A stretch of 40,965 nt of DNA from Bacteroidota bacterium. Lineage in GTDB: Bacteria; Bacteroidota; Bacteroidia; Bacteroidales; VadinHA17. The position numbers were made by a program, and so were the translations under genes. The DNA lies in NCBI GenBank assembly GCA_030706785.1, contig JAUZNW010000009.1, positions 1-40,965 on the forward strand, given 5' to 3'. Shown piece by piece: positions 17,331 through 40,965 of this stretch. Numbering within the stretch: position 1 is the first letter of the stretch; the number at the start of each line of letters is the position of its first letter. Under the pieces are notes generated by a model. That model saw only the letters and a list, made by a program, of their open reading frames with translations, searched no databases and was not told the origin of the DNA.

Positions 17331-18089
17331 ATGGACAAAATCAGGGTTTCAGCCGTAAGATATGCGAACACATTTCCATTCATTTACGGATTGACCGAAT
17401 CGGGCTTCGACAGGAAGGTGATTCTTGAAACCGATCATCCGGCTGATTGCGCAGCCAAATTATTGAGTGGAAAGGCAGATCTCGGACTTATACCTGTAGC
17501 TGTTATACCACTTCTGAAGGAATCATTTATAATCGGAAATTACTGCATCGGTGCCAACGACAGGGTGAGGACTGTTCAGATGATGAGCAATACTGAATTT
17601 GACAGGATCGATACCGTTTATCTCGATTACAGATCCAGGACCTCTGTCAATCTTGTGAAAGTCCTTGCCAGGAACAAATGGAAGACTCCCATGAGGTGGG
17701 TAAATACTTCCGAGGGATTTGATTTCAAGGGAATCACGGGAAATGAGGCGGTCGTTCTTATAGGAGATCAGTGTTTTGAGTTTGAGAAGGAATTCAGGGA
17801 AAAGATCGATCTCGCAAAGGAATGGAAAGACTTTACAGGCCTGCCGTTTGTGTTTGCTTGCTGGACATCGAACAGGCTGATGTGTAAGGGCTTTATCAAA
17901 GAGTTCAATTCAGCCCTCGAACTTGGAGTAAGGAATATAGATTCGGTTGTTGAAAAATTCGGGAATAGCGGAACCATAACCGGAAAGGAACTCAAAACCT
18001 ACCTTACTGAAAACATTGATTTTGAGTTCAATGATGAAAAGAAAAAAGGAATGAACCTGTTTTTTGAATTCCTTGGCCAGCTGCAGTAA
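17331..18089 (+). CDS. mqnA: Chorismate dehydratase MqnA, futalosine menaquinone pathway
   Basis: Predicted to dehydrate chorismate to 3-enolpyruvyl-benzoate, the first step of futalosine-dependent menaquinone synthesis. The 252-aa protein has the MqnA/MqnD periplasmic-binding-protein-like fold. Family features are the start KIRVSAVRYANTFPF (residues 3-17), the GKADLGLIPVAVIP segment near 48, IDTVYLDYRSRTS around 97, and PFVFACWTSNR. MqnD is a related family, but the N-terminal block fits MqnA better. The other mqn genes are not in the window. A menaquinone pathway is relevant to the quinone-linked QmoC-like protein at 38944-40092. It diverges from purB. Confidence 0.85.
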   Translation: MDKIRVSAVRYANTFPFIYGLTESGFDRKVILETDHPADCAAKLLSGKADLGLIPVAVIPLLKESFIIGNYCIGANDRVRTVQMMSNTEFDRIDTVYLDYRSRTSVNLVKVLARNKWKTPMRWVNTSEGFDFKGITGNEAVVLIGDQCFEFEKEFREKIDLAKEWKDFTGLPFVFACWTSNRLMCKGFIKEFNSALELGVRNIDSVVEKFGNSGTITGKELKTYLTENIDFEFNDEKKKGMNLFFEFLGQLQ

Positions 18090-21833: not shown

Positions 21834-22196
21834 ATGAAAACACTTAAAGTTCTATTGGCAGTATTATTACTCACAGCGTTTGGGTCTGCAGCCACGGTAA
21901 CAGCACAGGTCAGTTCACAAACTTCAACGAAGAAGACAGAAACATTCAAGGTCTGGGGTAATTGCAGCATGTGCAAGGACCGTATTGAAAAAGCAGTAAA
22001 AGAGGAAGGGGCAACAGAAGCATCATGGAATCAAAAAACAAAGATGCTTACGGTCACTTTTGATCCGTCAAAGACAAATAAGGATGTGTTGAGCAAAAAA
22101 CTTGCATCAGTTGGTCATGACACTGAAAAGTACAAAGCCCCGGATGATGTGTATGAAAAGCTACCGTCGTGCTGTCATTATGAAAGGAGCAAATAA
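21834..22196 (+). CDS. Secreted heavy-metal-associated (HMA) domain protein
   Basis: A 120-aa copper-chaperone-like protein. Residues 1-25 are a signal peptide, so it acts in the periplasm, unlike cytoplasmic CopZ. The ferredoxin-like HMA domain spans about 36-100 with the metal site CSMC (Cys44, Cys47). A C-terminal SCCHY motif (Cys113-Cys114-His115) gives a second possible metal ligand group. The cusA-type gene starts 34 bp downstream, so it probably passes Cu(I)/Ag(I) or a similar soft metal to the pump complex. Small HMA proteins with this CC-H tail are common in Bacteroidota. Confidence 0.85.
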   Translation: MKTLKVLLAVLLLTAFGSAATVTAQVSSQTSTKKTETFKVWGNCSMCKDRIEKAVKEEGATEASWNQKTKMLTVTFDPSKTNKDVLSKKLASVGHDTEKYKAPDDVYEKLPSCCHYERSK

Positions 22197-22230
22197 ATCT
22201 TGAATGTTTCGAACATAAATTATCTCCTCA

Positions 22231-25200: not shown

Positions 25201-26064
25201 CTCGTGCCTGCCATGAACGGTGTACAGGTTCCACTTGGTGAGATTGCCGAGATTAATTATACCCGTGGAGCCCAGATGATCCGTAGTGAGAATACCTTTC
25301 TTGTCGGTTACGTGATCTTTGACAAACAGGAAGACAGGGCTGAAGTTGATGTAGTGAAGGATGCCTACGAAATCCTGAAACAGGAGATCGGATCGGGCAA
25401 AATAGTGTTGCCGGCAGGAGTGACCTACAAATTCGCTGGTAACTACGAGCAGCAATTAAGAGCCACTAAAAGACTGGCGGTCGTGATACCAATAAGCCTC
25501 ATAACGATATTCCTCCTCCTTTATTTCCAGTTCCGGACGGTCACTGCATCCTTTATTCATTTCTCAGGTGTCTTTGTTGCATTTGCCGGGGGATTTATAA
25601 TGCTCTGGCTTTACGGACAGGGATGGTTCTTCAATTTTTCGGTAGGAGGGATCAATATGCGTGATCTTTTCCAGATGCATACTATAAATCTGAGTGTTGC
25701 CGTGTGGGTTGGCTTCATTGCTCTCTTTGGCATTGCTACAAATGATGGGGTAATAATGGGAACTTATATACACCAGGTTTTTGAGGAGAGGCACCCTGCA
25801 ACTGTCCATGACGTAAGGGAGGCAGTGGTGACAGCGGGAAAGAAACGTGTGCGGCCGGCAATGATGACAACGGCTGTCGCTGTGATCGCACTGCTTCCGG
25901 TACTTACTTCCACGGGAAAAGGTGCGGATATAATGGTACCCATGGCTATACCGGCATTCGGAGGCATGATCATCCAGGTAATGACGGTATTTGTAGTACC
26001 ACTTTTCCAGGCAATATGGCGTGAGGGACATGTGAAACGTCTTGCACAGGAACATGACGGTTAA
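22231..26064 (+). CDS. CusA/CzcA-type heavy-metal efflux RND pump
   Basis: Inner-membrane proton-driven pump of a tripartite metal efflux system. The 1277-aa protein is about 230 residues longer than E. coli CusA (1047). The RND fold is clear: N-terminal TM1, periplasmic porter domains, TM4 with Asp431 in AIAIGVMVDIGIIYVEN (the proton-relay acid of HME pumps), and the second half with RLIMLSTGMRAPMGLKV (871-887). Extra length comes from a membrane-associated insert at about 540-640 with two or three added hydrophobic segments and a periplasmic insert at about 778-845. Several Met residues near 721-726 and 874-883 fit Cu(I)/Ag(I) rather than zinc. It precedes TolC- and CusB-like genes in one operon. 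Confidence 0.92.
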   Translation: MLNRLVKYFLENRLVTFILLFVFIIGGIVTAPFNWKTGLLPRNPVPVDAIPDIGDNQQIVATEWMGRSPKDIQDQITYPLTTALLGIPGVKTIRSTSMFGMSFVYIIFNDNIDFYWSRSRILEKLNSLPAGTLPQGVQPSLGPDATALGQIFWYTLEGRDPKTGQPNGGWDPQELRTIQDFYVKYGLSTAEGVSEVASVGGFVKEYQVDLNPEALKAYNVSTMDVMNAVRKSNLDIGAETIELNNVEYIIRGLGYIKTLDDVDYSVVAVRNNIPVRIKDVANVTYGPATRRGGLDKSGSEAVGAVVVARYGSNPLEVINNVKEKINEINAGLPQKTLADGSVSKVTIVPFYDRTGLIRETIGTLESALSHEILISIIVIIVLVINLRASIIISGLLPVAVLMTFIVMKFFRVDANIVALSGIAIAIGVMVDIGIIYVENIIRHLEMPGNHNSRGKPLLQLIQKATFEVSPAVSTALATTVVSFLPVFAMQAAEGKLFRPLAFTKTFALVSSLLLGIIVLPTLAHIIFNINFDARKVRKIWNGSLITAGLLFTIIWGTWPALALTAIGINNLLDSRWSKSRREYPNYISIGITVLVATYYLSVEWLPLGARNSTLANFLFVAAIVAVILSALLLMVHNYEQIIRWCLANKWKFLLIPAFTLFFGVLVWQGSLKMFGFVATGFEKIGWKHFRETSLWEGVTKTFPGTGKEFMPSLNEGSFLLMPTSMPHSSIEKNIQYVEILDKRLSLIPEVEVAAGKWGRVNSALDPAPVQMFENTINYRPEYILDENGHRIRFKVDKEDRFILTGNRTYDPRKENFRIIPVDSLVPDKRGEYFRQWRPQIKRPIDIWNEIVKVTNIPGLTSAPKLQPIEARLIMLSTGMRAPMGLKVYGPDLATIEQAGMQFERALKDVPSVKASSVFYDRAVGAPYIEIKLNREAMARYGMTIGDVQEILQVAVGGMSLSTSVEGRERFSIRVRYARELRDNPEELKQILVPAMNGVQVPLGEIAEINYTRGAQMIRSENTFLVGYVIFDKQEDRAEVDVVKDAYEILKQEIGSGKIVLPAGVTYKFAGNYEQQLRATKRLAVVIPISLITIFLLLYFQFRTVTASFIHFSGVFVAFAGGFIMLWLYGQGWFFNFSVGGINMRDLFQMHTINLSVAVWVGFIALFGIATNDGVIMGTYIHQVFEERHPATVHDVREAVVTAGKKRVRPAMMTTAVAVIALLPVLTSTGKGADIMVPMAIPAFGGMIIQVMTVFVVPLFQAIWREGHVKRLAQEHDG

Positions 26065-26085
26065 CAATGAAATTAAGTGATCAAG

Positions 26086-27537
26086 ATGAAGTCAGTTAAG
26101 TACTTTATAATACTAAGCATACTCTTTAGTGTGCCTCGCTGGAACAACGCTCAGGACACAGGTAATCTGACAGATTCATTGTACTATTACCTGGAACTGG
26201 CCGCTAAGAATAATCCGACAGTTCTTCAGAGGTACAATGAATATCTGGCGGCATTGCAGAAGGTGCCACAGGTTGGCAGCCTGCCGGATCCGGAGTTCAC
26301 CTTGGGTGTGTTTCTGAAACCCATGGAACTTGTGGAGGGAAGTCAGGCTGCCGATATCAGGCTTATGCAGATGTTCCCGTGGTTCGGTACGCTAAGGGCT
26401 GCCAAGGATGAAATGAGCCTGATGGCAAGGGCAAAATACGAATCATTCCGGGATGCGAAACAGCAGGTATACTTCGATGTTCAAAGTACATGGTTTGACA
26501 TCTATAAACTTCATCAGAATTTAAAGATCTCTGAAAGAAACATTCAGATCCTTAAAACTATCGAACGTCTTGCACTGGTGCGTTTCAGAACTACGACAAC
26601 CGGTGCAGGAGGTGCATCTTCCTCGGTAATGAATTCAGCCAGCACTATGCAATCACAGGTACCGCCAACTGTTTCATCCGGAATGCAAGGGATGTCCTCA
26701 GTTAATCAGGAAGCAACTTACCGTCAGGCACCTGCTACTTCCACTATGCAAGGTAATCAGATGGGAGCCTTCTTGGGAGGTTACGGACTGGCTGACCTTT
26801 ACCGGATACAAATTGAAATTGCGGATCTTCAAAATAATATCGCCCTGTTGAAAAATGAACAGAATACAGCAACTGCAAAATTCAACAGCTATTTAAACAG
26901 GCCGATTCAATTAAGGGTAAGTGTCGCTGATACTCTGATCGCCGACACCCTGAAAGTACCGGTTTTAGCCGTAACTGACAGCATCATGAAAAAGAATCCA
27001 ATGCTGGGGATGCTCGAATATGAACAGCAATCCCTTGATGCAAAAAAGAGGATGGTCACAAAGATGGGTTATCCGATGGTAGGTCTCGGGATCAATTATT
27101 CACTGATAACCAAAAGTGAAATGTCTACTTCTTCCATGAACGGGAATGATATGATCATGCCAATGATTTCAGCAACTATTCCGATTTACCGCAAAAAATA
27201 CAGGGCGATGAAAAGCGAAGTGGAGCTCCTTAAAACATCCACTATCAATAACTACAATGCAATAGCCAACAACCTTCAGGTTGAGTATTACCAGGCACTT
27301 CAGCTTTATCAGGATGCAGCCCGAAGGATGAGGTTATTTTCGGACCAGTATAACCTTGCCAGGAACTCCCTGGATATCAAACTGGCCGGCTTTTCAGCCG
27401 GAAATTATGATCTTACGGATATTCTGCTCATACATCAGCAGGTACTTGACTTTGAACTCAGGCAGATAGAAGCTGTTTCTGATTACAATACTTCTATCGC
27501 GTGGTTAAATAAACTTATGGCAAATTCTCATTTCTGA
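26086..27537 (+). CDS. TolC/CusC-type outer membrane efflux protein with Met-rich insert
   Basis: Outer-membrane channel of the tripartite pump, 483 aa, with a signal peptide in the first ~23 residues (ends near NNAQ) and the usual long helical repeats. At 169-233 there is an unusual Gly/Ser/Thr/Gln insert containing six Met residues (182, 188, 200, 203, 221, 226) between two coiled-coil helices. The position suggests it sits in the periplasmic helical barrel. I chose the ATG at 26086 over a GTG at 26077 because it begins a standard signal peptide. It lies 21 bp after the pump gene and 5 bp before the adaptor gene. Confidence 0.88.
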   Translation: MKSVKYFIILSILFSVPRWNNAQDTGNLTDSLYYYLELAAKNNPTVLQRYNEYLAALQKVPQVGSLPDPEFTLGVFLKPMELVEGSQAADIRLMQMFPWFGTLRAAKDEMSLMARAKYESFRDAKQQVYFDVQSTWFDIYKLHQNLKISERNIQILKTIERLALVRFRTTTTGAGGASSSVMNSASTMQSQVPPTVSSGMQGMSSVNQEATYRQAPATSTMQGNQMGAFLGGYGLADLYRIQIEIADLQNNIALLKNEQNTATAKFNSYLNRPIQLRVSVADTLIADTLKVPVLAVTDSIMKKNPMLGMLEYEQQSLDAKKRMVTKMGYPMVGLGINYSLITKSEMSTSSMNGNDMIMPMISATIPIYRKKYRAMKSEVELLKTSTINNYNAIANNLQVEYYQALQLYQDAARRMRLFSDQYNLARNSLDIKLAGFSAGNYDLTDILLIHQQVLDFELRQIEAVSDYNTSIAWLNKLMANSHF

Positions 27538-27542
27538 AAATT

Positions 27543-29381
27543 ATGAAAATCAAGATTATCAATATTGTGTCCTCGAATAAGTATTTCCGATATGTACTCT
27601 TTGCAATCGTAGGCTTTTTTTTGGGATGGATTTTTTTCCATCATCCCCAAAAGACCGAGGTCAGCAATCAAAATACAGAACAGTCTGAAAGAGCGATAAT
27701 ATGGACATGTGCTATGCACCCTCAGATAAGGATGAATCATCCCGGCAAATGCCCGATATGCGGTATGGATTTAATCCCCTTGAACCAGGGTCCATCTTCC
27801 ACACCTACAGATCCAAACGCCATTCAGCTTACCAAAGAAGCTGCTCAACTGGCGAATGTCCTGACCTCGACTGTAACGAAGCAGAAACCTGTAAAAGAGG
27901 TCCGGCTTTATGGCAGGGTCCAGGCAGATGAAAGACTGCTTCAAAGCCAGGTGTCGCATATGCCCGGGCGGATTGAGAAACTTTTGGCAAACTTCACCGG
28001 AGAAACGGTAAATAAAGGACAGCCCCTGGCGATCATTTACTCGCCTGACCTGATCACTGCCCAACAGGAACTTCTTGAAGCAGCAAAAATGAAACAGTCC
28101 CAACCCGAAATATATGAGGCAGCGAAAGATAAACTCAGGCAGTGGAAACTTACGGATAATCAGATTTCTGAAATAGAAAATTCAGGTAAAGTGACTGACA
28201 ATTTTGAGATTTATTCAAATACCGATGGTGTTATTATTTCCATGAGGGTCAATAATGGGGATCATGTCGATCAGGGGACAGTCTTGTTTGATGTTGCTGA
28301 CCTGTCGGATATCTGGGTGATGTTTGATGCCTATGAATCTGACCTGCCCTTCCTAAACAACGGGGACCAGTTAACATTTACGGTACAGGCTCTTCCTGGC
28401 AGGAACTTTACAGGCACGATATCATTCATTGATCCGGTCATCAATTCTGTAACCAGGGTGGCAAAGGTAAGAGTGGAAATAAATAATTCTGCCCGCAGGC
28501 TTAAGCCTGAAATGTTTGCTTCCGGCATTGTTAAAGCAGATCTGAACAAGTATGCTGACAAACTTATTATTCCCCGCTCCTCGGTTCTCTGGACAGGCAC
28601 ACGTTCAATTGTTTATGTCAGGGAACCCGGTTCATCAGAACCTGTATTCAGGATGAGGGAGATCGAACTAGGACCTTCTCTTGGTAATAGTTACGTTGTC
28701 ATGAGCGGGCTTAACGATGGGGATGAGATTGTTACGAGTGGAACTTATAGTATCGATGCTTCCGCCCAGCTTGAGGGTAAACCGAGTATGATGAATCCCG
28801 GGGGAGAGAAGGTGGCAACCGGTCATGCCGGTATGGAGATGCCACGAATGGAACCAGCAGGGCGACAGACTGCTGAAAAAAAAGAAACTACGCCGGGAAT
28901 GGTGACTCCCGGAAATTCTCAGTCAAAAGTCAGCATGAATTTTATCATGCAGCTTAACGATGTTTATGACAAGTACATTGAGCTAAAAAATGCCCTTGTT
29001 GATGACAATTCTGTAAAAGCGGGAGAAGCGTCAAAAAGCTTAAAAGAAGAACTCGGCAGAGTCGATATGAAACTACTTGGCGGAGATGCGCACATGAAAT
29101 GGATGGAAATTTTGAACGGTTTAAATAAAGAAGCAGCATCAATTATTTCAGAAAGCAAAATTGATAGCCAGCGCTCTGCATTTTCAGTATTGAGTAACCT
29201 TATGTATGAAGCTGTCAGGACATTCGGTTTGATGGGCAAAACTGTTTATTACCAGTTCTGTCCGATGTTCAATAATGGTACAGGGGCATACTGGCTGAGC
29301 GAGATAAAAGAAATTAAAAATCCATATTATGGGAAGAAAATGATTGATTGCGGAGAAATAAGGGAAACTCTGAATTTTTGA
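27543..29381 (+). CDS. CusB-like periplasmic adaptor with HMBD and DUF3347 domains
   Basis: Membrane-fusion protein that links the RND pump to the outer-membrane channel. 612 aa, with an N-terminal membrane anchor (about 17-32) and a heavy-metal-binding domain at 54-80 (CAMHP...KCPICGMDL, with Cys56, Met58, His59, Cys70, Cys73 and Met75). These are followed by the lipoyl/barrel adaptor core (about 110-405), a Met-rich linker (about 412-464) and a C-terminal DUF3347 domain (465-612) ending in CPMFNNGTGAYW...NPYYGKKM..CGEI. The gene order cusA-tolC-cusB and the Met/Cys ligands favour Cu(I)/Ag(I). The DUF3347 domain is repeated as a separate protein downstream. Confidence 0.92.
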   Translation: MKIKIINIVSSNKYFRYVLFAIVGFFLGWIFFHHPQKTEVSNQNTEQSERAIIWTCAMHPQIRMNHPGKCPICGMDLIPLNQGPSSTPTDPNAIQLTKEAAQLANVLTSTVTKQKPVKEVRLYGRVQADERLLQSQVSHMPGRIEKLLANFTGETVNKGQPLAIIYSPDLITAQQELLEAAKMKQSQPEIYEAAKDKLRQWKLTDNQISEIENSGKVTDNFEIYSNTDGVIISMRVNNGDHVDQGTVLFDVADLSDIWVMFDAYESDLPFLNNGDQLTFTVQALPGRNFTGTISFIDPVINSVTRVAKVRVEINNSARRLKPEMFASGIVKADLNKYADKLIIPRSSVLWTGTRSIVYVREPGSSEPVFRMREIELGPSLGNSYVVMSGLNDGDEIVTSGTYSIDASAQLEGKPSMMNPGGEKVATGHAGMEMPRMEPAGRQTAEKKETTPGMVTPGNSQSKVSMNFIMQLNDVYDKYIELKNALVDDNSVKAGEASKSLKEELGRVDMKLLGGDAHMKWMEILNGLNKEAASIISESKIDSQRSAFSVLSNLMYEAVRTFGLMGKTVYYQFCPMFNNGTGAYWLSEIKEIKNPYYGKKMIDCGEIRETLNF

Positions 29382-29492
29382 AATGTAAAACGACTTTCTT
29401 TTATTAGGAAATAATCCTGAATTTATAAAATGACATATATTGATCTTAATTGTTAATATTTCAGCGTAAGCCATAGCATTGGAGAGTAAATT

Positions 29493-30029
29493 ATGACCTT
29501 AACGAATATGAAAAGAATAATAATTCTTATGATTGCAATTGCAGCCGTTCAGGTGGCTGCAGATGCCAGCTTCGGTCCTGTTCCCCAGCATACAGGTACG
29601 ACTAAAGAAATTACTAATGCATACCTTAAATTAAAAAATGCCCTTGTTAAGGATAATTCCTCTGAAGCAGCTGAAATGGGGAAGGCAGTGGAAACTGCAT
29701 TGAAAAGTTTTGATAATACTCATTTGAACATTGAGCAGAAGAAACTATTCGACGATGTAAAAAGTGATGCATTGGAAAATGCAGAGCATATAGGAGAAAG
29801 CAGTGGGAATATCGTACATCAAAGGGAACATTTCGAGCTGTTAAGCAAGGATATCTATGACCTTGTAAAGAAAGTCGGAAGCGGACAATTACTTTACTGG
29901 GTTTTGTGTCCTACATATAACAGCGGCAAAGGGGCTTACTGGATAAGTGAAGTCAAAGAAATTCAAAATCCATATCTTGGTAAATCCATGCCGACCTGCG
30001 GAACGATTAAAGAGGAGATCAAGCCATGA
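29493..30029 (+). CDS. Exported DUF3347 domain protein
   Basis: A 178-aa protein with a signal peptide (about residues 6-25) and one DUF3347 domain. The domain shares the block CPTYNSGKGAYWISEVKEI, NPYLGKSM and CGTI with the C-terminus of the upstream CusB-like adaptor, so the two arose by duplication. The function of DUF3347 is not established to my knowledge. The paired Cys residues and association with CusB suggest metal handling in the periplasm. A GGAG lies 9 bases upstream of the ATG at 29493, which supports that start; an alternative ATG at 29508 would give a tighter signal peptide. It follows cusB by 111 bp. Confidence 0.82.
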   Translation: MTLTNMKRIIILMIAIAAVQVAADASFGPVPQHTGTTKEITNAYLKLKNALVKDNSSEAAEMGKAVETALKSFDNTHLNIEQKKLFDDVKSDALENAEHIGESSGNIVHQREHFELLSKDIYDLVKKVGSGQLLYWVLCPTYNSGKGAYWISEVKEIQNPYLGKSMPTCGTIKEEIKP

Positions 30030-33448: not shown

Positions 33449-35230
33449 CTAATAACCTTCCCTTTCAACGTAATGGGTATGAAGGAGCTCGTGTGATTTA
33501 TGGCTGTTCGGCTTATCTAGGAACTCCTTGTATATAGCCATCACATCGGGATTTTCATGTGATTTTCTGAGGACCATGTGTTCATCCTCAGAATAAATAG
33601 CCTTCATTCGGTTCTCACGGATCTCCATGCTGGTCGGTATGGGTTGTCCTCCGCCCCCGATACATCCTCCCGGGCAAGCCATTACTTCAATGAAGTGATA
33701 ATTTGCTTTCCCTTCCTTTACCCGCTTCATTATCTTATTGGCATTCGAAAGTCCGTGAGCAATAGCGACCTTAAGCTCAACGCCTTCAAGGAATTTCCAG
33801 TCATTTGTACAGCCTTCGATCTTGACTGAGGCTTCCTTGACACCATCCATACCGCGAACTGGCGTTATGTTCAGGTTTGTAAATGGTACCTCCCGTCCGG
33901 TAACAATCTCATAGGCTGTTCTCAGGGCAGCTTCCATCACGCCTCCGGTTGCACCAAAAATAACACCTGCGCCGGTCGATTCACCCATAATCGAGTCGTA
34001 ACCTGAAGGTTTAAGCACCCTGAAGTCTATTCCTGCCTGCTTTATCATCACAGCAAGCTCCCTGGTCGTAAGAACAAAATCGATGTCCTTGTACCCGCTG
34101 GCACGCATCTCGGGTCTGTCTGCCTCAAATTTCTTAGCCGTGCATGGCATAACCGAAACTGAAACCATCTTAGAAGGATCGATATTCCGCATCTTGGCAA
34201 AATAGGTTTTCGCGAGAGCACCGAACATCTGCTGAGGTGATTTGCACGTTGAAAGGTTTGGCAGGAACTCGGGATACTTATGCTCCATAAATTTAATCCA
34301 TCCAGGTGAGCAGGAGGTAAACATCGGGATCTTCGTTTTCTTATCACCTTCCACAAGGATCTTTTTAAGCCTTGTAAGCAATTCTGTGCCCTCCTCCATT
34401 ATAGTAAGGTCAGCGCTGAAATCGGTATCAAGAACTGAATCAAAACCTACCTGCTTCAGGGCGGTGACCATTTTGCCGGTAACCCTTTCACCCGGATCAT
34501 ATCCCAGATCTTCACCAAGGGCAACCCTTACTGCCGGTGCAGTCTGGACTACTACATGTTTATCCGGGTCATAGATTGCATCCCATACCTGGTCGATGTA
34601 AGTTTTCTCAACAAGTGCTCCGGTTGGGCAGCGGTTGACACACTGTCCGCAGTTGGTGCAGACCACATGGCTCATCGGCTTGTTATGGAATGATGATATT
34701 TTCTGATGAGCACCCTTGTTCGCAACAGCAATAGCTGAAATGTATTGAAGTTCTGAACACGTTCTCACGCAGCGCTGGCACCTTATGCACTTGCTATCGT
34801 CCTTAATAAATGAAGGGGATGATCTGTCAATTGTATGAGGATGATCTTCAACGAGGTCCAGGAAAATTGTATCTCCGAATGCGAACTCATTGGCAAGAGC
34901 CTGAAGCTCGCATTTCTGGTTCTTGTAACATTTCGTGCAATCGGACCTGTGCTCGGAAAGCAAAAGCTCAACAATGTGCTTCCTTGCATTTCTTACCTTG
35001 AGAGTATTGGTATGTATATCCATCCCTTCGGAAACCGGTGTTGCACATGATGCAATAAGAGTACGTTCGCCTTTCTGCTCAACAACGCATACCCTGCAGT
35101 TACCAGCTACACAAAGATCCGGGTGATTACAAAGGGTTGGTATGTTGATCTTCAGCTTCTGAGCAGCAGCAAGAACTGTGGTCCCTGCAGGTACTGATAC
35201 AAACTGGTCATTTATAGTCAGATTTATCAT
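33449..35230 (-). CDS. hydA: [FeFe] hydrogenase catalytic subunit HydA, NADH-linked trimeric type
   Basis: Catalyses reversible H2 formation. With the ATG at 35230 it has 593 aa: an N-terminal [2Fe-2S] domain (Cys34, 45, 48, 62), a His-Cys3 [4Fe-4S] site (His94, Cys98, 101, 107), two [4Fe-4S] motifs (Cys148/151/154/158 and 191/194/197/201), and the H-cluster domain with TSCSPGW (305-311), MPCTAKK (361-367) and MACPGGCIGGGGQP (517-530). The first motif has Ser where many group-A enzymes have a second Cys. It lies downstream of hydC and hydB. The frame is open to a TTG at 35287 inside hydB, but the MINLT start begins the ferredoxin fold. Probably cytoplasmic. Maturases HydEFG are not in the window. 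Confidence 0.94.
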   Translation of the reverse strand: MINLTINDQFVSVPAGTTVLAAAQKLKINIPTLCNHPDLCVAGNCRVCVVEQKGERTLIASCATPVSEGMDIHTNTLKVRNARKHIVELLLSEHRSDCTKCYKNQKCELQALANEFAFGDTIFLDLVEDHPHTIDRSSPSFIKDDSKCIRCQRCVRTCSELQYISAIAVANKGAHQKISSFHNKPMSHVVCTNCGQCVNRCPTGALVEKTYIDQVWDAIYDPDKHVVVQTAPAVRVALGEDLGYDPGERVTGKMVTALKQVGFDSVLDTDFSADLTIMEEGTELLTRLKKILVEGDKKTKIPMFTSCSPGWIKFMEHKYPEFLPNLSTCKSPQQMFGALAKTYFAKMRNIDPSKMVSVSVMPCTAKKFEADRPEMRASGYKDIDFVLTTRELAVMIKQAGIDFRVLKPSGYDSIMGESTGAGVIFGATGGVMEAALRTAYEIVTGREVPFTNLNITPVRGMDGVKEASVKIEGCTNDWKFLEGVELKVAIAHGLSNANKIMKRVKEGKANYHFIEVMACPGGCIGGGGQPIPTSMEIRENRMKAIYSEDEHMVLRKSHENPDVMAIYKEFLDKPNSHKSHELLHTHYVEREGY

Positions 35231-35255
35231 AGCTTTTCTTTTTTTCATGTATTGG

Positions 35256-36416
35256 TTAATAAATGATCTCTTCCCTGAAATTCTCAACTATTGTTCTGAA
35301 TGCATTGCCCACAGACTGCCCCAGGCCGCATTTGGAAGCTATTTTCATGGTATCGGCAAGCTTGACAAGCTCATTCAGGTAGGTTGATTTAACCTCACCT
35401 TTCTTGACCTTTTCGACACCTTTAAGGAGCTGCTGGCATCCTACCCTGCACGGCGTGCATTGTCCGCAGGACTCTTCAGTGAAGAAATCGAGATAGTTGT
35501 GAAGTACATTGTACATTGAGCGGGAGCTGTTGAAGAGCTTCATCGACCCTCCTGTCGGGACCCCCTCAAAGCCTATTATTGTATCATTGAATTTTTTCCT
35601 TGGTACACAGAAACCTGATGCGCCTCCTACCTGAACAGCCTTTGTATCCCCGTCACCGAATTCATTGACGAACTGCTGTACAGTCATTCCCAGCTCAAGC
35701 TCGAAGATCCCTGGTGTTGGTGTGTCACCGGATACAGAGAACACTTTCGATCCTCTTGAGTCTTTTGTCCCAAGCTGAGTGTATTCTTCCGGTCCATGCT
35801 TGAGGATCATCACTACGGTTACGAGTGTCTCAACGTTATTGATTGAAGTGGGTTTATAAAATACACCTGATGTAGTCGGGTACGGAGGTTTGTTGCGGGG
35901 TTCACCGCGATCGCCCTGGATCGATTCGAACAATGCGCTCTCCTCTCCGCAGATATAAGCACCACTGCCCAGACAGTACCGTATCCTGAATTTGTAACCT
36001 ATTTCATCAATCAGCTTATGGAATGCATCCAGATCCTTCATCAGCTGCGGAAGGAGGAATTTGTATTCACCCCTGAGGTAAACGATGCCCTGCTGGGCCC
36101 CTATTGCTTTTGCGGCAATTACCATACCTCCGTATACCTTGTATGCAACCCTGTCTAGTATCTCACGGTCCTTGAAAGTTCCGGGTTCGCCTTCATCGGC
36201 ATTGCATACTATATATTTCTCAGGGTCTTTTTCTGCAGCTGTATATTTCCATTTCAGTCCGGTAGGGAATCCGGCACCGCCCCTTCCCTTGAGTCCCGAT
36301 TCAAGAACCTGCTTAATGATCTCATCGCTGGTCATTTTGTAGGCCTTGGTCAGAACTTCTTTCAGATCGACTTTCTCTAATATTAGATCAACCTTATTTA
36401 GCCCTTTGATTTTCAT
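35256..36416 (-). CDS. hydB: NuoF-like FMN/NADH subunit HydB of the [FeFe] hydrogenase, short form
   Basis: NADH-binding flavoprotein subunit. The NuoF core is intact: GRGGAGFPTG (44-53, NADH/FMN), CNADEGEPGTFKDR (71-84), GAYICGEESALFESIQG (152-168) and the [4Fe-4S] ligands Cys317, 320, 323 and 363. It is only 386 aa. Bifurcating HydB proteins are usually near 600 aa, with an extra N-terminal [2Fe-2S] domain and a C-terminal 2[4Fe-4S] ferredoxin domain, and both are absent here. This favours a ferredoxin-independent NADH-dependent hydrogenase, as an inference. It sits 14 bp after hydC and 25 bp before hydA. Confidence 0.92.
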   Translation of the reverse strand: MKIKGLNKVDLILEKVDLKEVLTKAYKMTSDEIIKQVLESGLKGRGGAGFPTGLKWKYTAAEKDPEKYIVCNADEGEPGTFKDREILDRVAYKVYGGMVIAAKAIGAQQGIVYLRGEYKFLLPQLMKDLDAFHKLIDEIGYKFRIRYCLGSGAYICGEESALFESIQGDRGEPRNKPPYPTTSGVFYKPTSINNVETLVTVVMILKHGPEEYTQLGTKDSRGSKVFSVSGDTPTPGIFELELGMTVQQFVNEFGDGDTKAVQVGGASGFCVPRKKFNDTIIGFEGVPTGGSMKLFNSSRSMYNVLHNYLDFFTEESCGQCTPCRVGCQQLLKGVEKVKKGEVKSTYLNELVKLADTMKIASKCGLGQSVGNAFRTIVENFREEIIY

Positions 36417-36430
36417 GATTCACCGGATAT

Positions 36431-36895
36431 TTATTTTTGCATGTAACCTTTAATAATCTCCACCATTTTTTCAGGAGTAAGCTCAGTATAAGGCATCTCG
36501 TTTATCAGTATAGCCGGGGCCTTATGGCACCATCCGATGCAGTTTGTTTCGATCAGACTGAACTGATTGTCTGAGGTTGTTTCACCAACCTTTATCTTGA
36601 GCATATCTTCAAGAGTCTGTATTATTTCATTTTTCCCCTTCATCGAGCAGGTAATGGTCTTGCATATCCTGATAACATATTTACCTCTCTCCTGGGTATC
36701 AAGGAAAGTATAGAAGGAAGCAGTTCCGTAGACCTCGGCTGCAGATATTTCAAGCTCCTTTGCCACTTCAACCATTGCCTCATCAGTCAGGTAGTTGTAT
36801 TTCTCAACAATTCCCTGAAGAATAGGCATAAGGCTGTTCCTTGCCCGTCCGTGTTTGTCTGCCAATTTCTTAACCAGATTTCCAGTTTGGTACAT
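36431..36895 (-). CDS. hydC: NuoE-like [2Fe-2S] subunit HydC of the hydrogenase
   Basis: Thioredoxin-like [2Fe-2S] protein that passes electrons between HydB and HydA. 154 aa, with a three-helix N-terminal part and ligands Cys78, Cys83 (CKTITC) and Cys119, Cys123 (CIGWC), in the NuoE spacing. VYGTASFYTFL (55-65) is typical of the family. First gene of the hydC-hydB-hydA set. The 282-bp gap upstream separates it from the hdrA-like gene on the same strand, so it may have its own promoter, though I found no consensus match. Confidence 0.93.
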   Translation of the reverse strand: MYQTGNLVKKLADKHGRARNSLMPILQGIVEKYNYLTDEAMVEVAKELEISAAEVYGTASFYTFLDTQERGKYVIRICKTITCSMKGKNEIIQTLEDMLKIKVGETTSDNQFSLIETNCIGWCHKAPAILINEMPYTELTPEKMVEIIKGYMQK

Positions 36896-37177
36896 AACGT
36901 ATTTATTTTTAACTACATATAAAATATCTAATCGATGATTTTCTCCAGAAAGATGGGCTGTTAAAATAATAACAATCCTTGTAATAAAAACTTATATTGG
37001 TCATTAAATTGAGATCCTGCGATAATATTCATTTTAAATTCACGAAATTTTCGCGCCCGAAGATAATGATTCTTATTTCTTCTGCAAATCGGTTTTGTCA
37101 TTTTAAAATAACCAATAGCAGGTAAGGACTGCAAAATCAGCCCTAATAAATTTCTCACTTTAATGTTTTACAAGGAG
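36896..37177. other. 282-bp gap between hydC and the hdrA-like gene
   Basis: AT-rich, no credible gene. I searched for CAAAnnTA (the minus-strand -7 box) and found no match. The segment ttcacgaaattttcgcg (around 37037-37053) has loose dyad symmetry but does not fit a Rex-type site. Promoter or leader functions for the hyd genes are plausible but not shown. Confidence 0.4.
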
Positions 37178-38938
37178 TTACTTTACCTCTTCAACCGTAT
37201 TGAATAAAGCATCGACCTGTGCAAGAATCTGTTGATCGGTAAAATGTCTGCCTTTTATTGCTGATGAGGGACAGGCAGCAACACATACACCACAACCTTT
37301 GCATAGAGCGCTTATGACGTGACTTCGTTTTTTCTCTTCATCAAATTCAATGGCGCTGAACGGGCAAAGCTGATTACAGAAACGACAACCGGAGCACAGG
37401 TCTTCATTGACTTCCGAATAAAGAGCATCAACCTCAATTTTACCCTTGGCTATACGGGCAAGAATTCGTGCGGCTGCCGCTCTTGCCTGGGCCACAGTGT
37501 CGGGAATGTCCTTCGGAGCAACACATGTTCCGGCAATAAAGACTCCGTCTGTGGTGGTGGCAACAGGTTCGAGTTTGGGATGACTTTCTATGAACCACCC
37601 ATCCTTATCATGGCTTATATTAACAATGCGTGCGATTTCGTGAGCATCATCGCAGGCTTCCATACCAACCATCAGGACAACAAGGTCAGCAGGGATTTCG
37701 ATCTGTTCGCCTGAAAGCTTTTCATTTACTTCAAGGAACATTTCACAGTCATCATTGGGAGAGGCTTTATGAATGACAGGCTTATCATTCTTTTCATACA
37801 TAAGGAACAGGGTTTTGGCCTCAGATGATCTGCGATAAAACTCCTCATGCCCTTTACCAAATGCATGCATATCAATGTAAATATCAGAAATATAGCATGA
37901 AGGATGGGCTGACTTAATTTCATGCGCATATTTCAGGGCAGTCATGCAGCATACCCTTGAACAATAAGTATGGAATTCTTTGCTCCTGCTTCCCACACAA
38001 TGGATGATGGCCACATATTTAGGAGCTTTACCCTCCTTTGTTTCAATGCGTCCGGAGCGAATCATCTTTTCAAGTTCAAAGGAGGTAATTACGTTCGGCA
38101 ATTTACCATAACCATAGTGGACAATCCTTGAAGCATCGAATTCCTTGTATCCTGTGCAGACAATCACATTTCCTATATCCACTTTGACAGTCTTATCGTC
38201 TGTGACCGATTTACCGTTAAAATGCTTTATGGTAGCAGAGAAGTTCCCAATATACCCGCTAAGCTCCGTTACCTTCGAATCAAGATACACATGAATTTGT
38301 TTGTGGTCCCTGACGCGCGTGACACGTTCAGTCAGCAAATCTCTTGCAGAGTAAAGATATGGTGCTGTAAGGTCTATGCGCAACAGATTGCCTCCCAACT
38401 GGTTATTCTTTTCGACAAGGTGAACATGATAACCAGCATCAGCAAGCTCCAGGGCAGCGGTCATCCCTGCTATGCCTCCTCCGATCACCAGAACATCCGG
38501 AGTCATGTTGACAGACATGCTTTCCAGGGGTTCATGAAGTTCTACCCTGCATACAGCTGCATGGACCAGGCCTTTAGCTTTTTCTGTTGCCTCAACAGAG
38601 TCGTTGTGCACCCAGCTGCATTGCTCCCTGATATTGGCCATTTCGAAAAGATACTGGTTCAGTCCGGCAGATCTGAGAGCGTTACGGAAAGTACGCTCAT
38701 GCATATTTGGACTGCATGCAGCTACCACTACACGATCAAGTTTAAACTGCCTGATATCCTGAATTATCATTTCCTGGCCGGGATTGGAACACATGTATTT
38801 ATATGTCTTTGCAAGAGCGACGTTTGGCAGGCTGGACGCATATCTGGCAACAGCTTCTACATCGACAACTTTGGCGATGTTTGTTCCGCACCAACAGATA
38901 TATACTCCAATTTTGGGCGATTTATTTTTGTCAGCCAT
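37178..38938 (-). CDS. HdrA-like iron-sulfur flavoprotein with C-terminal ferredoxin domain
   Basis: Heterodisulfide reductase subunit A-type protein, 586 aa. It has an HdrA N-terminal domain (about 8-135) with Cys15/17, Cys50 and ACSPNMHERTF, an FAD-binding Rossmann fold starting GGGIAGMTAALEL (153-165), the CSRVCC Fe-S region in the middle, VAGTCVAPKDIPDTVAQARAA, and a 2[4Fe-4S] ferredoxin tail (Cys515/518/521/525 and 546/549/552/556). HdrA-type flavins can bifurcate electrons or serve in Qmo complexes. It starts 5 bp after the QmoC-like gene, so they are co-transcribed. Substrates are unknown. No HdrB or methanogenic partner is present. Confidence 0.9.
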   Translation of the reverse strand: MADKNKSPKIGVYICWCGTNIAKVVDVEAVARYASSLPNVALAKTYKYMCSNPGQEMIIQDIRQFKLDRVVVAACSPNMHERTFRNALRSAGLNQYLFEMANIREQCSWVHNDSVEATEKAKGLVHAAVCRVELHEPLESMSVNMTPDVLVIGGGIAGMTAALELADAGYHVHLVEKNNQLGGNLLRIDLTAPYLYSARDLLTERVTRVRDHKQIHVYLDSKVTELSGYIGNFSATIKHFNGKSVTDDKTVKVDIGNVIVCTGYKEFDASRIVHYGYGKLPNVITSFELEKMIRSGRIETKEGKAPKYVAIIHCVGSRSKEFHTYCSRVCCMTALKYAHEIKSAHPSCYISDIYIDMHAFGKGHEEFYRRSSEAKTLFLMYEKNDKPVIHKASPNDDCEMFLEVNEKLSGEQIEIPADLVVLMVGMEACDDAHEIARIVNISHDKDGWFIESHPKLEPVATTTDGVFIAGTCVAPKDIPDTVAQARAAAARILARIAKGKIEVDALYSEVNEDLCSGCRFCNQLCPFSAIEFDEEKKRSHVISALCKGCGVCVAACPSSAIKGRHFTDQQILAQVDALFNTVEEVK

Positions 38939-38943
38939 CTTGA

Positions 38944-40092
38944 TTATTTTTTATAAATGCTCTCCCTCTTGCCAATCGGAATCGCAGTCTTCCTCAGTTC
39001 GGAAAAATAGACTGCAAAAGGCCTGTATGCAAGATGAGACCATTTTGAAAAAGGTACTTCAATAGCAAGCATTGGCACAAGGACTGCCATATGAATAACG
39101 TAGGAATAATATGTTGCAACCGGCATGCCTTCAATCCTGAAAACATGCAGACGGATCCCTGAAGCTGTAGTCATAAACAAAAGGACGATAAAGATCCAAT
39201 CACTGAAATGTGACAGCTTGAATTTCTGTCCGGCCTTTTTTATCCTTCCCCAGAAGAAGAAAACCAGGCCGATAAACAATCCAAAGGTCGCATAATATCC
39301 AAGGATTCTCTGAGGATGATACCATAAATAGATATTATCAGTCTGGAACCATTTCAGATTCCCGACGATTAGGATAAACATCAGTGTATAACCAGACATT
39401 AATACCCAGTGAAAAATCCAATAGCTCTTGTCCTTGCATTTATTGAACCGTATCTGGGTGGCAAAATGAACAATCAACTGCCAGATCTGCTTAAAATAGG
39501 AGATGAAGGAAATCTTCAGGGATTTATCCTTCAGTATGGTAAAATACCACATCCGGATAATATTGGAAACCAGAAAACTGGCGATTGAAATAAGCATGAT
39601 ATGAGCTCCTATGTTGACCGTCTCGACCGGAAACATCTCATTTACCTTCACACCTCCTTCGGATGTCAAAGAGGTAACAATTCCATGAGGATTGAATACA
39701 GAAAACAACAATGCGATCAGGATACTTATGATGACTATTGCAGCCAGCTCCCACCAGTGTGACGTATAAAACCTCCTTGACAGTCCTGTCCAGTCATAAA
39801 CCGAAGTAAGGTATCTTCTCAGGATCATCATTGTATCACCCGGATCTGCATCGCGCGGACATAAATCGGAGCAGTCACCGCAGTAATAGCAAAGCCACGG
39901 ATCAAGTGAGGTTTCTAGTTTCTTTTCCAGTCCCATCTGGAGTTGCCGTATAGGTCTTCTGGGGAACCTGTTAAATTCATCTGCATGGGGACAAACAGCT
40001 GAACAATCCCCGCACTGATAGCATAACTGTATATTCTCCTTGCCAAAACGGTCAAGAACATCAATAAAGCCAGGATTGACTCTGATAGCCAT
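38944..40092 (-). CDS. QmoC/HdrC-HdrE-like membrane subunit with 2[4Fe-4S]
   Basis: A 382-aa fusion of an HdrC-like ferredoxin domain and a cytochrome b-like membrane domain. Two [4Fe-4S] motifs are at Cys24/27/30/34 and Cys68/71/74/78. About six hydrophobic segments follow (around 115-131, 161-182, 226-244, 262-281, 297-313, 330-347), with His residues such as 164, 229, 259 and 334 that could ligate haem b. This layout matches QmoC of the quinone-interacting oxidoreductase of sulfate reducers. It lies between two HdrA-like genes, the QmoA/QmoB counterparts, which suggests a membrane complex exchanging electrons with menaquinone. Confidence 0.88.
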   Translation of the reverse strand: MAIRVNPGFIDVLDRFGKENIQLCYQCGDCSAVCPHADEFNRFPRRPIRQLQMGLEKKLETSLDPWLCYYCGDCSDLCPRDADPGDTMMILRRYLTSVYDWTGLSRRFYTSHWWELAAIVIISILIALLFSVFNPHGIVTSLTSEGGVKVNEMFPVETVNIGAHIMLISIASFLVSNIIRMWYFTILKDKSLKISFISYFKQIWQLIVHFATQIRFNKCKDKSYWIFHWVLMSGYTLMFILIVGNLKWFQTDNIYLWYHPQRILGYYATFGLFIGLVFFFWGRIKKAGQKFKLSHFSDWIFIVLLFMTTASGIRLHVFRIEGMPVATYYSYVIHMAVLVPMLAIEVPFSKWSHLAYRPFAVYFSELRKTAIPIGKRESIYKK

Positions 40093-40103
40093 AGTTATTC
40101 GTT

Positions 40104-40965
40104 TTATATGGTATGAATAGTTTTAGCCCGCGTCTCAATTTCACTCAGCGGGATACTGCTCATGTGACCAATTCCTTTTTTGCTTGTGAGGCTTTTTAAT
40201 ACACCTGCTGCTACAGCGGAAGCCTGAGCCACTGTATCGGGGATATCCTTCGGCCCCTGGCACATTCCGGCTACGTATATGCCTCCTTTTTCGGTATCTG
40301 TTGGACTACCGTTATAATTCAGCTCTGAAAACCAACCGTCAGGATCCACCGATATATCCAGCATTTTGCTCAGTTCAGTTGTCCCTGCCGATGGAATGAG
40401 ACCAACCGCCAGTACCACCATGTCAGCATTGAATTCGGCCAGTCTGTCGTGGATAATATCCTCGCCCCTGACAACCATCTGGCCATTGTGCATGGACACT
40501 TTAGCCGAATGACCCCGTATTACCATTGTTCCCTCCTCTTTTATACGGTCCGCGAATTCTTCATATCCCTTTCCGAAAGCACGCATATCTATATAAAACT
40601 CGTAAACCGTAACGTCGGGTATCTTCTCCTTGATCAAATGGGCAAATTTCAGTGAATACATACAGCAGACCCGGGAACAGTATGAGTTGTATTTTTTATT
40701 TCTCGATCCTACGCAATGTATTATTGCAACACTTTTCGGCGGTATTCCATCCGGTGAGAAAACCCATTCTTCCTTCCCTGTCTTTTTGTTTAAATGTTTT
40801 GTTTTGGTTACAATCCGTCCACCAGTCGTACCAGATGCATTTGTAAGCCGTTCAAATTCAAGAGAAGTCAGCACATTCGGAAATATTCCATATCCATACT
40901 GTTCTATCTTGCTTACATCAAGTAGTTCATAGCCCGTCGCAAGAATTATATTGCCGACCTCAAGA
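40104..40965 (-). CDS. HdrA/QmoA-like flavoprotein, 5' end outside the window
   Basis: Partial: the frame continues open to the window edge (first visible codons LEVGNIILATGYELLD), leaving at least 286 aa of the C-terminal part. It shares with the neighbouring HdrA-like protein the AIIHCVGSRN, CSRVCC, AFGKGYEEF and AGMCQGPKDIPDTVAQASA blocks, so they are paralogues. It ends at ETRAKTIHTI without a ferredoxin tail, unlike its neighbour, which resembles the QmoA/QmoB difference. It starts upstream of the QmoC-like gene with an 11-bp gap. Whether it has its own N-terminal HdrA domain cannot be seen. Confidence 0.88.
   Translation of the reverse strand, partial: LEVGNIILATGYELLDVSKIEQYGYGIFPNVLTSLEFERLTNASGTTGGRIVTKTKHLNKKTGKEEWVFSPDGIPPKSVAIIHCVGSRNKKYNSYCSRVCCMYSLKFAHLIKEKIPDVTVYEFYIDMRAFGKGYEEFADRIKEEGTMVIRGHSAKVSMHNGQMVVRGEDIIHDRLAEFNADMVVLAVGLIPSAGTTELSKMLDISVDPDGWFSELNYNGSPTDTEKGGIYVAGMCQGPKDIPDTVAQASAVAAGVLKSLTSKKGIGHMSSIPLSEIETRAKTIHTI

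Follow-up and report, generated by a model that had tools for sequence, protein, structure and literature searches.

The question raised by one end of contig JAUZNW010000009.1, from the Bacteroidota bacterium assembly GCA_030706785.1 (Bacteroidales, VadinHA17), is which hydrogenase, if any, is wired to a pair of HdrA-like flavoproteins and a QmoC-like membrane subunit whose genes stand directly before those of an NADH-linked [FeFe] hydrogenase, HydABC. The window, i.e. the whole stretch of DNA analysed (40,965 nt), is this entire contig (C289); the assembly totals 3.65 Mb in 299 contigs and is 97% complete and 6.5% contaminated. The hdr and qmo genes form the 3′ end of a unit of seven genes, hycI-mvhD-mvhG-mvhA-hdrA1-qmoC-hdrA2, which combines a group-3c-like [NiFe] hydrogenase with a Qmo-like membrane chassis. 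With a probability that we put at about 0.68, this unit encodes a membrane-anchored Mvh-Qmo [NiFe] hydrogenase exchanging electrons between H2, menaquinone and, probably, ferredoxin, and HydABC is independent of it.

The hdr/qmo genes continue on a second contig

As set out in the preliminary description of this DNA, six genes follow each other on the minus strand in the order HdrA-like, QmoC-like, HdrA-like, a 282-bp gap, hydC, hydB and hydA, and each was recovered in its place and matched to its family with a score well beyond what chance would give. The first, hdrA1 (40104..40964), is cut by the contig end, is unbroken in relatives, and comprises the C-terminal 286 codons of a QmoA-like flavoprotein. 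The qmoC-like gene (38944..40092) codes for an HdrC-type domain, whose eight Cys would hold two [4Fe-4S] clusters, together with six hydrophobic helices and four invariant His, and hdrA2 (37178..38938) for a QmoB-like flavoprotein with an N-terminal cluster and a C-terminal 2[4Fe-4S] ferredoxin. The complete HdrA-like protein matched the HdrA2 model NF040770 at an E-value of 2e-185, under its curated cut-off.

When the 7.5-kb stretch holding these genes was searched against the genome, the single other place returned was the end of contig C110, which is identical to the last 141 bp of the window; no longer overlap between the ends of C289 and C110 was found at lengths of up to 400 bp. The locus is cut by the window end, and C110 holds its front. 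In the same direction as the unit, it carries the end of a gene for an LVIVD-repeat protein (L003 (C110):2-619), the hydrogenase maturation protease gene hycI (L003:818-1294) upstream of mvhD (L003:1376-1939, MvhD family), mvhG (L003:1950-2924, VhuG family), mvhA (L003:2921-4384, VhuA family) and the front 360 codons of hdrA1 (L003:4433-5512). Joined over the 141-bp overlap, hdrA1 forms a 600-codon open frame, 78-84% identical to its counterparts in five unbroken relatives with the gene order mvhDGA-hdrA1-qmoC-hdrA2 (hereafter order A), and the mvhA-hdrA1 gap, 48 bp here, measures 26-94 bp in 13 rows corresponding to 12 distinct order-A loci, L055 and L042 being the same one. Both motifs of group 3c large subunits, L1 (ICGxCxxxH) and L2 (AYDPCxxCATH), as defined in the accessible part of PMC6085437, are found in MvhA as ICGVCPGCH and AYDPCFSCATH. 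HdrB is absent from the unit, there being no further gene between mvhD and hydC.

The LVIVD gene on C110 is 76% identical to the one preceding hydC in a relative (L164) and is the sole match in the genome. The Mvh-Qmo unit sits exactly between this gene and hydC, which are neighbours in six relatives, two of which (G028 and G029) have a module elsewhere. Because the LVIVD gene and hydC adjoin in relatives, the C110-C289 join is supported from both sides. With MvhDGA, a clear electron partner, standing directly before hdrA1 upstream of position 40965, the link between the flavoproteins and HydABC that the preliminary description had put forward is left unsupported.

Distribution of the Mvh-Qmo unit

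To survey the unit, an HdrA1 alignment was scanned against a set in which each GTDB species is represented once, and loci of other genomes were added to the top 80 of at least 582 relatives. hdrA1 and qmoC occur together in at least 57 distinct loci besides the window, and mvhA is present on the fetched stretch in 43 of the 57. Order A is seen in 12 of these loci and order B (hdrA1-qmoC-hdrA2-mvhDGA) in 31, while the remaining 14 could not be ordered, mostly through contig ends; loci L041 and L044-L053, which are without a 600-aa HdrA1, were excluded from the count. In one genome, G057, an order-B unit and an order-A unit lie head to tail. Judged by record titles, the hosts among the matches listed are Bacteroidales, other Bacteroidota, Aminicenantes, Acidobacteriota/Holophagae and Actinomycetota, with single hosts labelled Chrysiogenales and Deltaproteobacteria; under about 46% identity most matches have the familiar hdrC..hdrA-mvhDGA layout.

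Within the order, the unit's HdrA1 was detected in 26 of 393 genomes, the window genome included, and in 20 of 206 genera; near-full-length module proteins scored 809-1181 bits, and one contig-cut protein 762. In the phylum sample of 395 genomes, 100 passed an E-value of 1e-150, yet none besides this one exceeded 605 bits: the other 99, judged by frame length, have open frames of 604-752 aa, nearly all of at least 657 aa and canonical HdrA-like. The module as a general Bacteroidota trait is therefore unsupported. The earlier proposal of an H2- and flavin-linked Qmo module, a novel arrangement for the phylum, agrees with its rarity in the phylum sample, except that its hydrogenase is MvhDGA instead of HydABC.

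As to regulation, the order-A units L042, L043 and L227 are flanked by two-component genes, and in the order-B units L233 (8211-8915) and L245 (11162-11872) a Crp/Fnr-type gene (Pfam) directly precedes hdrA1. TTGTGA-N6-TCACAA palindromes were observed upstream of mvhD in two order-A loci (L059:6844 and L076:2623). Together, the palindromes and the Crp/Fnr-type genes hint at possible anaerobic control.

Division of one HdrA over two proteins

Fifteen canonical HdrA proteins from the fetched loci share 26 Cys, each in 15/15. HdrA1 keeps C183/C186, the eight Cys of the inserted ferredoxin and four next to the flavin; two more N-terminal Cys align in the window protein, but are not conserved in the family. 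In HdrA2 the N-terminal cluster and the flavin side retain four Cys each and the C-terminal ferredoxin eight, and a flavin adenine dinucleotide (FAD) motif is present in both proteins. Between them, the two account for all the Cys sets of a single canonical HdrA. After removal of L066_4319 (HdrA1), L235_14994 and L066_1416 (MvhA) and of proteins below set lengths or scores, the Cys of the inserted arm were found in 44/44 HdrA1 rows (C303 in 42/44) and those of the C-terminal arm in 46/46 HdrA2 rows. The eight Cys and four His of QmoC (H228, H295, H334, H353) were found in 48/48 rows, duplicates such as L034/L088 included (46 different), and the four His are candidate b-haem ligands. The HdrA1, HdrA2 and MvhA proteins of the locus group with those of order-A relatives (supports 95, 97 and 95).

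HydABC and its surroundings

Beyond the 282-bp gap (36896..37177, minus strand), hydC (36431..36895) codes for a NuoE-like [2Fe-2S] subunit (Pfam/NCBIfam), hydB (35256..36416) for a short (386 aa) NuoF-like flavin mononucleotide (FMN)/NADH subunit without extra Fe-S domains, and hydA (33449..35287) for an [FeFe] hydrogenase which scores 887 bits against NF040763, ‘NADH-dependent [FeFe] hydrogenase, group A6’ (cut-off 765). HydA probably starts near 35230, 19 codons later than the listed TTG, since the resulting 593 aa equal the HydA frame length in 10 of 15 relatives. HydB displays T..K, Y and GGASG, the non-bifurcating residue pattern according to the accessible part of PMC7311640, which calls for T/S and K/S/A near NADH, Y near FMN and no GGPSG; the positions were mapped by motif, T. 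maritima HydB itself not being aligned. In the same genome, contig C104 (L254) carries a second HydA-like gene along with a long HydB of 599 aa, and contig C265 (L253) a 667-aa HdrA with HdrC-like and MvhD genes. Overall, HydABC is best explained as an independent, NADH-dependent and probably non-bifurcating [FeFe] hydrogenase that has a promoter region to itself.

The gap contains, at 36959..36975 on the minus strand, 80 bp before hydC, the element TTGTTA-N6-TAACA, which resembles a Rex box. Of 16 loci (the window plus 15), 8 have an exact copy in the 300 bp before hydC and 15 a copy with no more than one mismatch, whereas 200 letter shuffles gave, at up to one mismatch, 0.385 on average and 3 at most; in 11 of 16 it lies at -80 to -85. 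Since the pattern was drawn from the same alignment in which it was later counted, and letter shuffles were the sole control, the count speaks for conservation more than for the identity of the factor; in the whole window, 3 matches at up to one mismatch were found versus a shuffle mean of 0.87. The box is kept in relatives without the module and is kept here although the module now stands upstream, indicating that hydCBA can be transcribed alone. A search of the gap for terminator-like sites found none, so that read-through from hdrA2 to hydC is possible; a sigma-70 scan of the gap returned 4 sites versus a shuffle mean of 2.1. On C110, no Rex-like box was found within two mismatches, with 1.73 expected by chance.

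The two halves are found apart in relatives. Of 35 congeners, 31 have short-type HydB at 82-89% identity, in three cases as a partial frame, and among the matches listed the remaining four (G007, G010, G021, G031) have 40-42% HydB matches only. Module loci occur in 5 of 35, namely G015, G016, G021, G028 (qmoC-hdrA2 only, on a 4-kb contig) and G029 (without the mvhA start), and hydB and the module are on different contigs in G015, G016, G028, G029 and G057. Module genes are absent from all 16 hydCBA regions fetched from other genomes (13 congeners and 3 others), and none of 11 other order-A units with at least 5 kb beyond hdrA1 has hydCBA behind hdrA2. A HydA, HydB or HydC match is present on the fetched stretch in 6 of the 57 module loci, in none of them in the arrangement of the window. 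This survey, which the preliminary description had called for, did not show the order of the two halves to be conserved and leaves the HydABC-Hdr-Qmo link built on it unsupported.

Upstream of hydCBA there are hyp genes in 10 of the 16 regions, headed by rex in 6 (Pfam), and an LVIVD gene in 7, adjacent to hydC in 6; one adjacent case has a 95-aa frame in between, and in L155 a 1162-aa frame separates the two. Downstream, in 15 regions, we found dinB (8), mqnA (5), purB (4) and nitrilase (2) genes. The module was either placed into, or kept in, the hydrogenase island of HydABC. The window also carries, on the plus strand at 17331..18089, an mqnA-like gene (Pfam menaquinone biosynthesis), like the regions of those five relatives, and its presence supports a menaquinone pool in the host. 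A further cluster at 21834-30029 resembles a heavy-metal efflux cluster with a DUF3347 protein and is ordinary (names by eye, DUF3347 by search).

Proposed mechanism and energetics

Building on the gene content, cluster ligands, conservation and island position described above, we infer that the products of the unit would assemble into one complex with menaquinone and ferredoxin as its partners, able to run in either direction. MvhAG would activate H2, MvhD would hand the electrons to the flavins of the split HdrA2/HdrA1 pair, and QmoC, as an HdrC-cytochrome b, would exchange them with menaquinone; one or other ferredoxin arm would meet MvhD, and the spare arm would serve ferredoxin. As the flavins separate the quinone arm from the ferredoxin arms, reversible bifurcation is likely: 2 H2 + menaquinone + ferredoxin <-> menaquinol + reduced ferredoxin.

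Computed from textbook potentials, this reaction yields -49 kJ at 1 bar H2 and about -10 kJ at 40 Pa, reaches zero at about 5 Pa and is exergonic above, and with NADH at -320 mV, H2 can be formed at pressures of up to 66 Pa. In the accessible part of PMC7311640, a non-bifurcating NADH-dependent hydrogenase is given a range of 2.2-40.2 Pa H2. Mvh-Qmo and HydABC may be joined only through H2, and their adjacency suggests, without proving, internal H2 recycling. A tentative and rather doubtful extension is an internal loop in which Rex-controlled HydABC would make H2 from NADH at a few to tens of Pa, and Mvh-Qmo would recapture it, splitting the electrons to menaquinone and ferredoxin and running in reverse for syntrophy below about 5 Pa. 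The working ranges of the two enzymes meet, as such a loop would require, which is not evidence for its existence.

Alternative explanations

The arrangement proposed in the preliminary description was a single complex of HydABC with HdrA and QmoC, directly linking NADH, H2, flavin and menaquinone. The shared strand and the gap free of terminator-like sites would fit such a complex, and locus L041 of G029, with QmoC beside NuoE/NuoF-like and HdrA genes, offers a genomic precedent, albeit with other subunits. However, hydCBA never follows hdrA2 in the other order-A modules with enough 3′ sequence, HydB is far more widespread among congeners than the module and is kept on separate contigs in five genomes, hydC has its own conserved box, and the H2 site is already supplied by MvhAG. 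On these grounds, namely halves that are apart in relatives, a separate box and an MvhDGA partner, the single complex was rejected as the main reading and seems to us very improbable. A stronger alternative grants that the two systems are separate and holds that their adjacency means nothing beyond a shared hyp-gene island, the H2 from HydABC leaving the cell and Mvh-Qmo serving under another condition. The combination was found in this genome only, among the loci examined, a [NiFe] hydrogenase in the module makes a place beside hyp genes natural, and the lack of a Rex-like box on C110 makes the units seem differently regulated; the nearness is not unique, however, as an [FeFe] hydrogenase frame is convergent with the module in L080, L084, L245 and L249. 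We give this explanation an even chance.

The module itself could be read as a simple uptake (or evolving) [NiFe] hydrogenase which passes electrons from H2 to menaquinone only, with the flavins as ordinary relays and no ferredoxin involved. H2 oxidation with menaquinone is strongly exergonic at all computed H2 pressures (-37 to -66 kJ per 2 e), and no RnfC over cut-off was detected in this genome, nor in G015 and G029, while it is present in G016, G021, G028 and G057. Yet both ferredoxin arms of HdrA are kept, split over two proteins, and, as one of them may be needed for MvhD, it is the second arm alone that argues for ferredoxin; we regard the simple uptake enzyme as unlikely. Least probable of all is a remnant of sulfate respiration, in which the Qmo complex would once have partnered adenosine 5′-phosphosulfate (APS) reductase, AprAB. 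The chassis is Qmo-like, and in G049, a member of the same order, aprB adjoins QmoABC (L050). In this genome, though, no aprA exceeded the cut-off (best 52 bits versus 641.75; 14 control genomes likewise had none, with no positive control), and mvhA accompanies the unit in most of the other loci. An APS reductase partner was rejected on the aprA result, and the absence of a dissimilatory sulfate gene noted earlier is borne out as far as aprA goes: the Qmo-like module stands in a genome without aprA over cut-off.

The following points weigh against an Mvh-Qmo hydrogenase beside an independent HydABC. The C110-C289 join rests on the 141-bp overlap and synteny, not on reads. MvhA scores 382 bits against the VhuA model, whose cut-off is 800, and QmoC 195.6 bits against the qmoC model NF038018, under its cut-off of 300, which is also failed by three relatives (188.6-191.4) and by QmoC of the 433/644-aa type (149.6), with no known-passing control. 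Nor does the window QmoC cluster with its counterparts from the closest module relatives. A quick tree places it between the two sides: it joins the order-A side at the base (support 96), ahead of a branch of 1.25 and outside all order-A rows, and constraining it together with L054, L055 and L040, a group chosen after the identities were known, cost 165 log-likelihood units (approximately unbiased (AU) test, p 5.8e-50). It is 41-45% identical to order-A QmoC, 49-57% to many order-B QmoC and only 36-41% to those of L069, L072, L074, L075, L232 and L235 (order B or unknown). Exchange of this membrane subunit, or retention of an old copy, may lie behind this; its history seems to differ from that of the rest of the unit. 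The ferredoxin partner is suggested solely by the kept ferredoxin domains, the bacterial Mvh-Qmo members are known here from their genes, and, as RnfC was not detected over cut-off in this genome, what becomes of reduced ferredoxin is uncertain. Finally, the long HydB on C104 also has GGASG and S/S, differing by F and an extra Fe-S stretch, so that the residue test for HydB is weak here and discriminates only in part.

Related loci

Several loci carry the same chassis with other partners. In L041:96-12710 (contig C217 of G029), a QmoC 41% identical to that of the window stands beside a 289-aa protein that joins an FAD front part to a NuoE domain. The neighbours also include a 627-aa NuoF-like protein that carries extra Fe-S domains, a 1090-aa protein whose front is of the [2Fe-2S] kind and whose rear is HdrA, MvhD, an MvhG-like protein, and CBS, DRTGG, PHP and HATPase regulatory genes. 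The end of C217 is an mvhA piece (90%), identical over at least 141 bp to the end of C109, the module contig of G029, and this mvhA piece may be an assembly effect, since that end is shared letter for letter with C109. An NADH-HdrA-QmoC combination, abandoned here for the HydBC of the window, may therefore exist in G029, with NuoE/F-like genes different from HydBC.

QmoA-like proteins of 904-921 aa are encoded at L036:13537-16251, L045:4811-7561 and, assigned by length only, L046:3719-6484; in the first two a complete GltD-like part (Fer4_20 and Pyr_redox_2, approximately residues 157-548) lies inside the HdrA fold. Their genes cluster with QmoB-like, QmoC and MvhD genes, and the set may be a related version of this chassis that is fed by NAD(P)H. 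At L050:1-6836 (G049), aprB over cut-off adjoins QmoABC, with an MvhD part fused to QmoB, making G049 a candidate sulfur-respiring member of the order. The QmoA and QmoB of L050 have nearly the same Cys division as HdrA1 and HdrA2, apart from single Cys; the QmoB-like proteins of L047, L051 and L036 differ in that part of the inserted Cys set is kept.

The [FeFe] hydrogenase frames convergent with Mvh-Qmo lie at L080:17942-21256, L084:17937-21251, L245:2-2797 and L249:1-2799. That of L080 (1104 aa) begins with an NAD-epimerase domain and has an unassigned middle (Pfam, L080 only), that of L084 is alike in length, and those of L245 and L249 are cut. In L235:11878-16445, a few kb downstream of an order-B unit, HydB-, HydA-, MvhG- and MvhA-like genes lie in a row, which is perhaps an HydABCSL-like [NiFe] set.

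Comparison with known systems

An Mvh-Qmo-Hdr cluster consisting of MvhAGD, two HdrA and a QmoC-HdrC fusion, and highly expressed, is described in the accessible part of PMC10945360 for Archaeoglobi (Ca. Methanoglobus hypatiae / nevadensis), with the hypothesis that H2 is bifurcated to menaquinone and ferredoxin and possibly comes from the other, NADPH-linked hydrogenase of the cell; the accessible part of PMC12008871 mentions a QmoC/HdrA/Mvh complex as proposed by others. All of these components, MvhA, MvhG, MvhD, two HdrA and the QmoC-HdrC fusion, are present here, on C110 plus the window, and on single contigs in relatives. The archaeal case, compared by its description, is that of a methanogen, whereas here the hosts are Bacteroidales and other bacteria, there are two gene orders, and an [FeFe] HydABC lies in the island. 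No report of a bacterial Mvh-Qmo unit was found in the accessible parts of the open-licence PMC literature. We regard the unit as a bacterial variant of the described Mvh-Qmo kind, the new element being the [FeFe] hydrogenase in the same island.

With QmoABC of sulfate reducers the unit shares two HdrA-like flavoproteins whose clusters are divided nearly as in L050 and an HdrC-cytochrome b subunit; it differs in having a separate MvhD and added MvhG and MvhA, in a QmoC under the curated cut-off, and in the lack of aprA over cut-off. As in MvhADG-HdrABC, the HdrA parts match the solved chains 5odc, 7bkb and 8rvu by sequence search, and MvhD, MvhG and MvhA match by family, but here two genes share the parts of HdrA, there is no HdrB, and HdrC forms one protein with a membrane cytochrome b. 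HydABC resembles the non-bifurcating group A6 hydrogenases of Syntrophomonas wolfei and Syntrophus aciditrophicus, as presented in the accessible part of PMC7311640, in its HydA score, in a HydB without extra Fe-S domains and in residue pattern, and differs from them in its Bacteroidales host and in that the genes of congeners often stand behind rex and hyp genes.

If the reading of a discrete bacterial Mvh-Qmo unit is correct, it would represent a cytoplasm-facing hydrogenase wired to menaquinone via an HdrA flavin pair, by which fermenting or syntrophic Bacteroidota would trade electrons between H2, ferredoxin and menaquinone; this would explain how H2 could be respired, or menaquinol electrons pushed out as H2. 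If the H2 loop also existed, free H2 would take the place of protein contact, amounting to a two-enzyme, H2-linked ‘NADH:menaquinone/ferredoxin’ bifurcation. The chassis variants within one order, with MvhGA, a GltD-like NAD(P)H part, NuoE/NuoF-like genes or aprB as partners, make Qmo look like a plug-in module.

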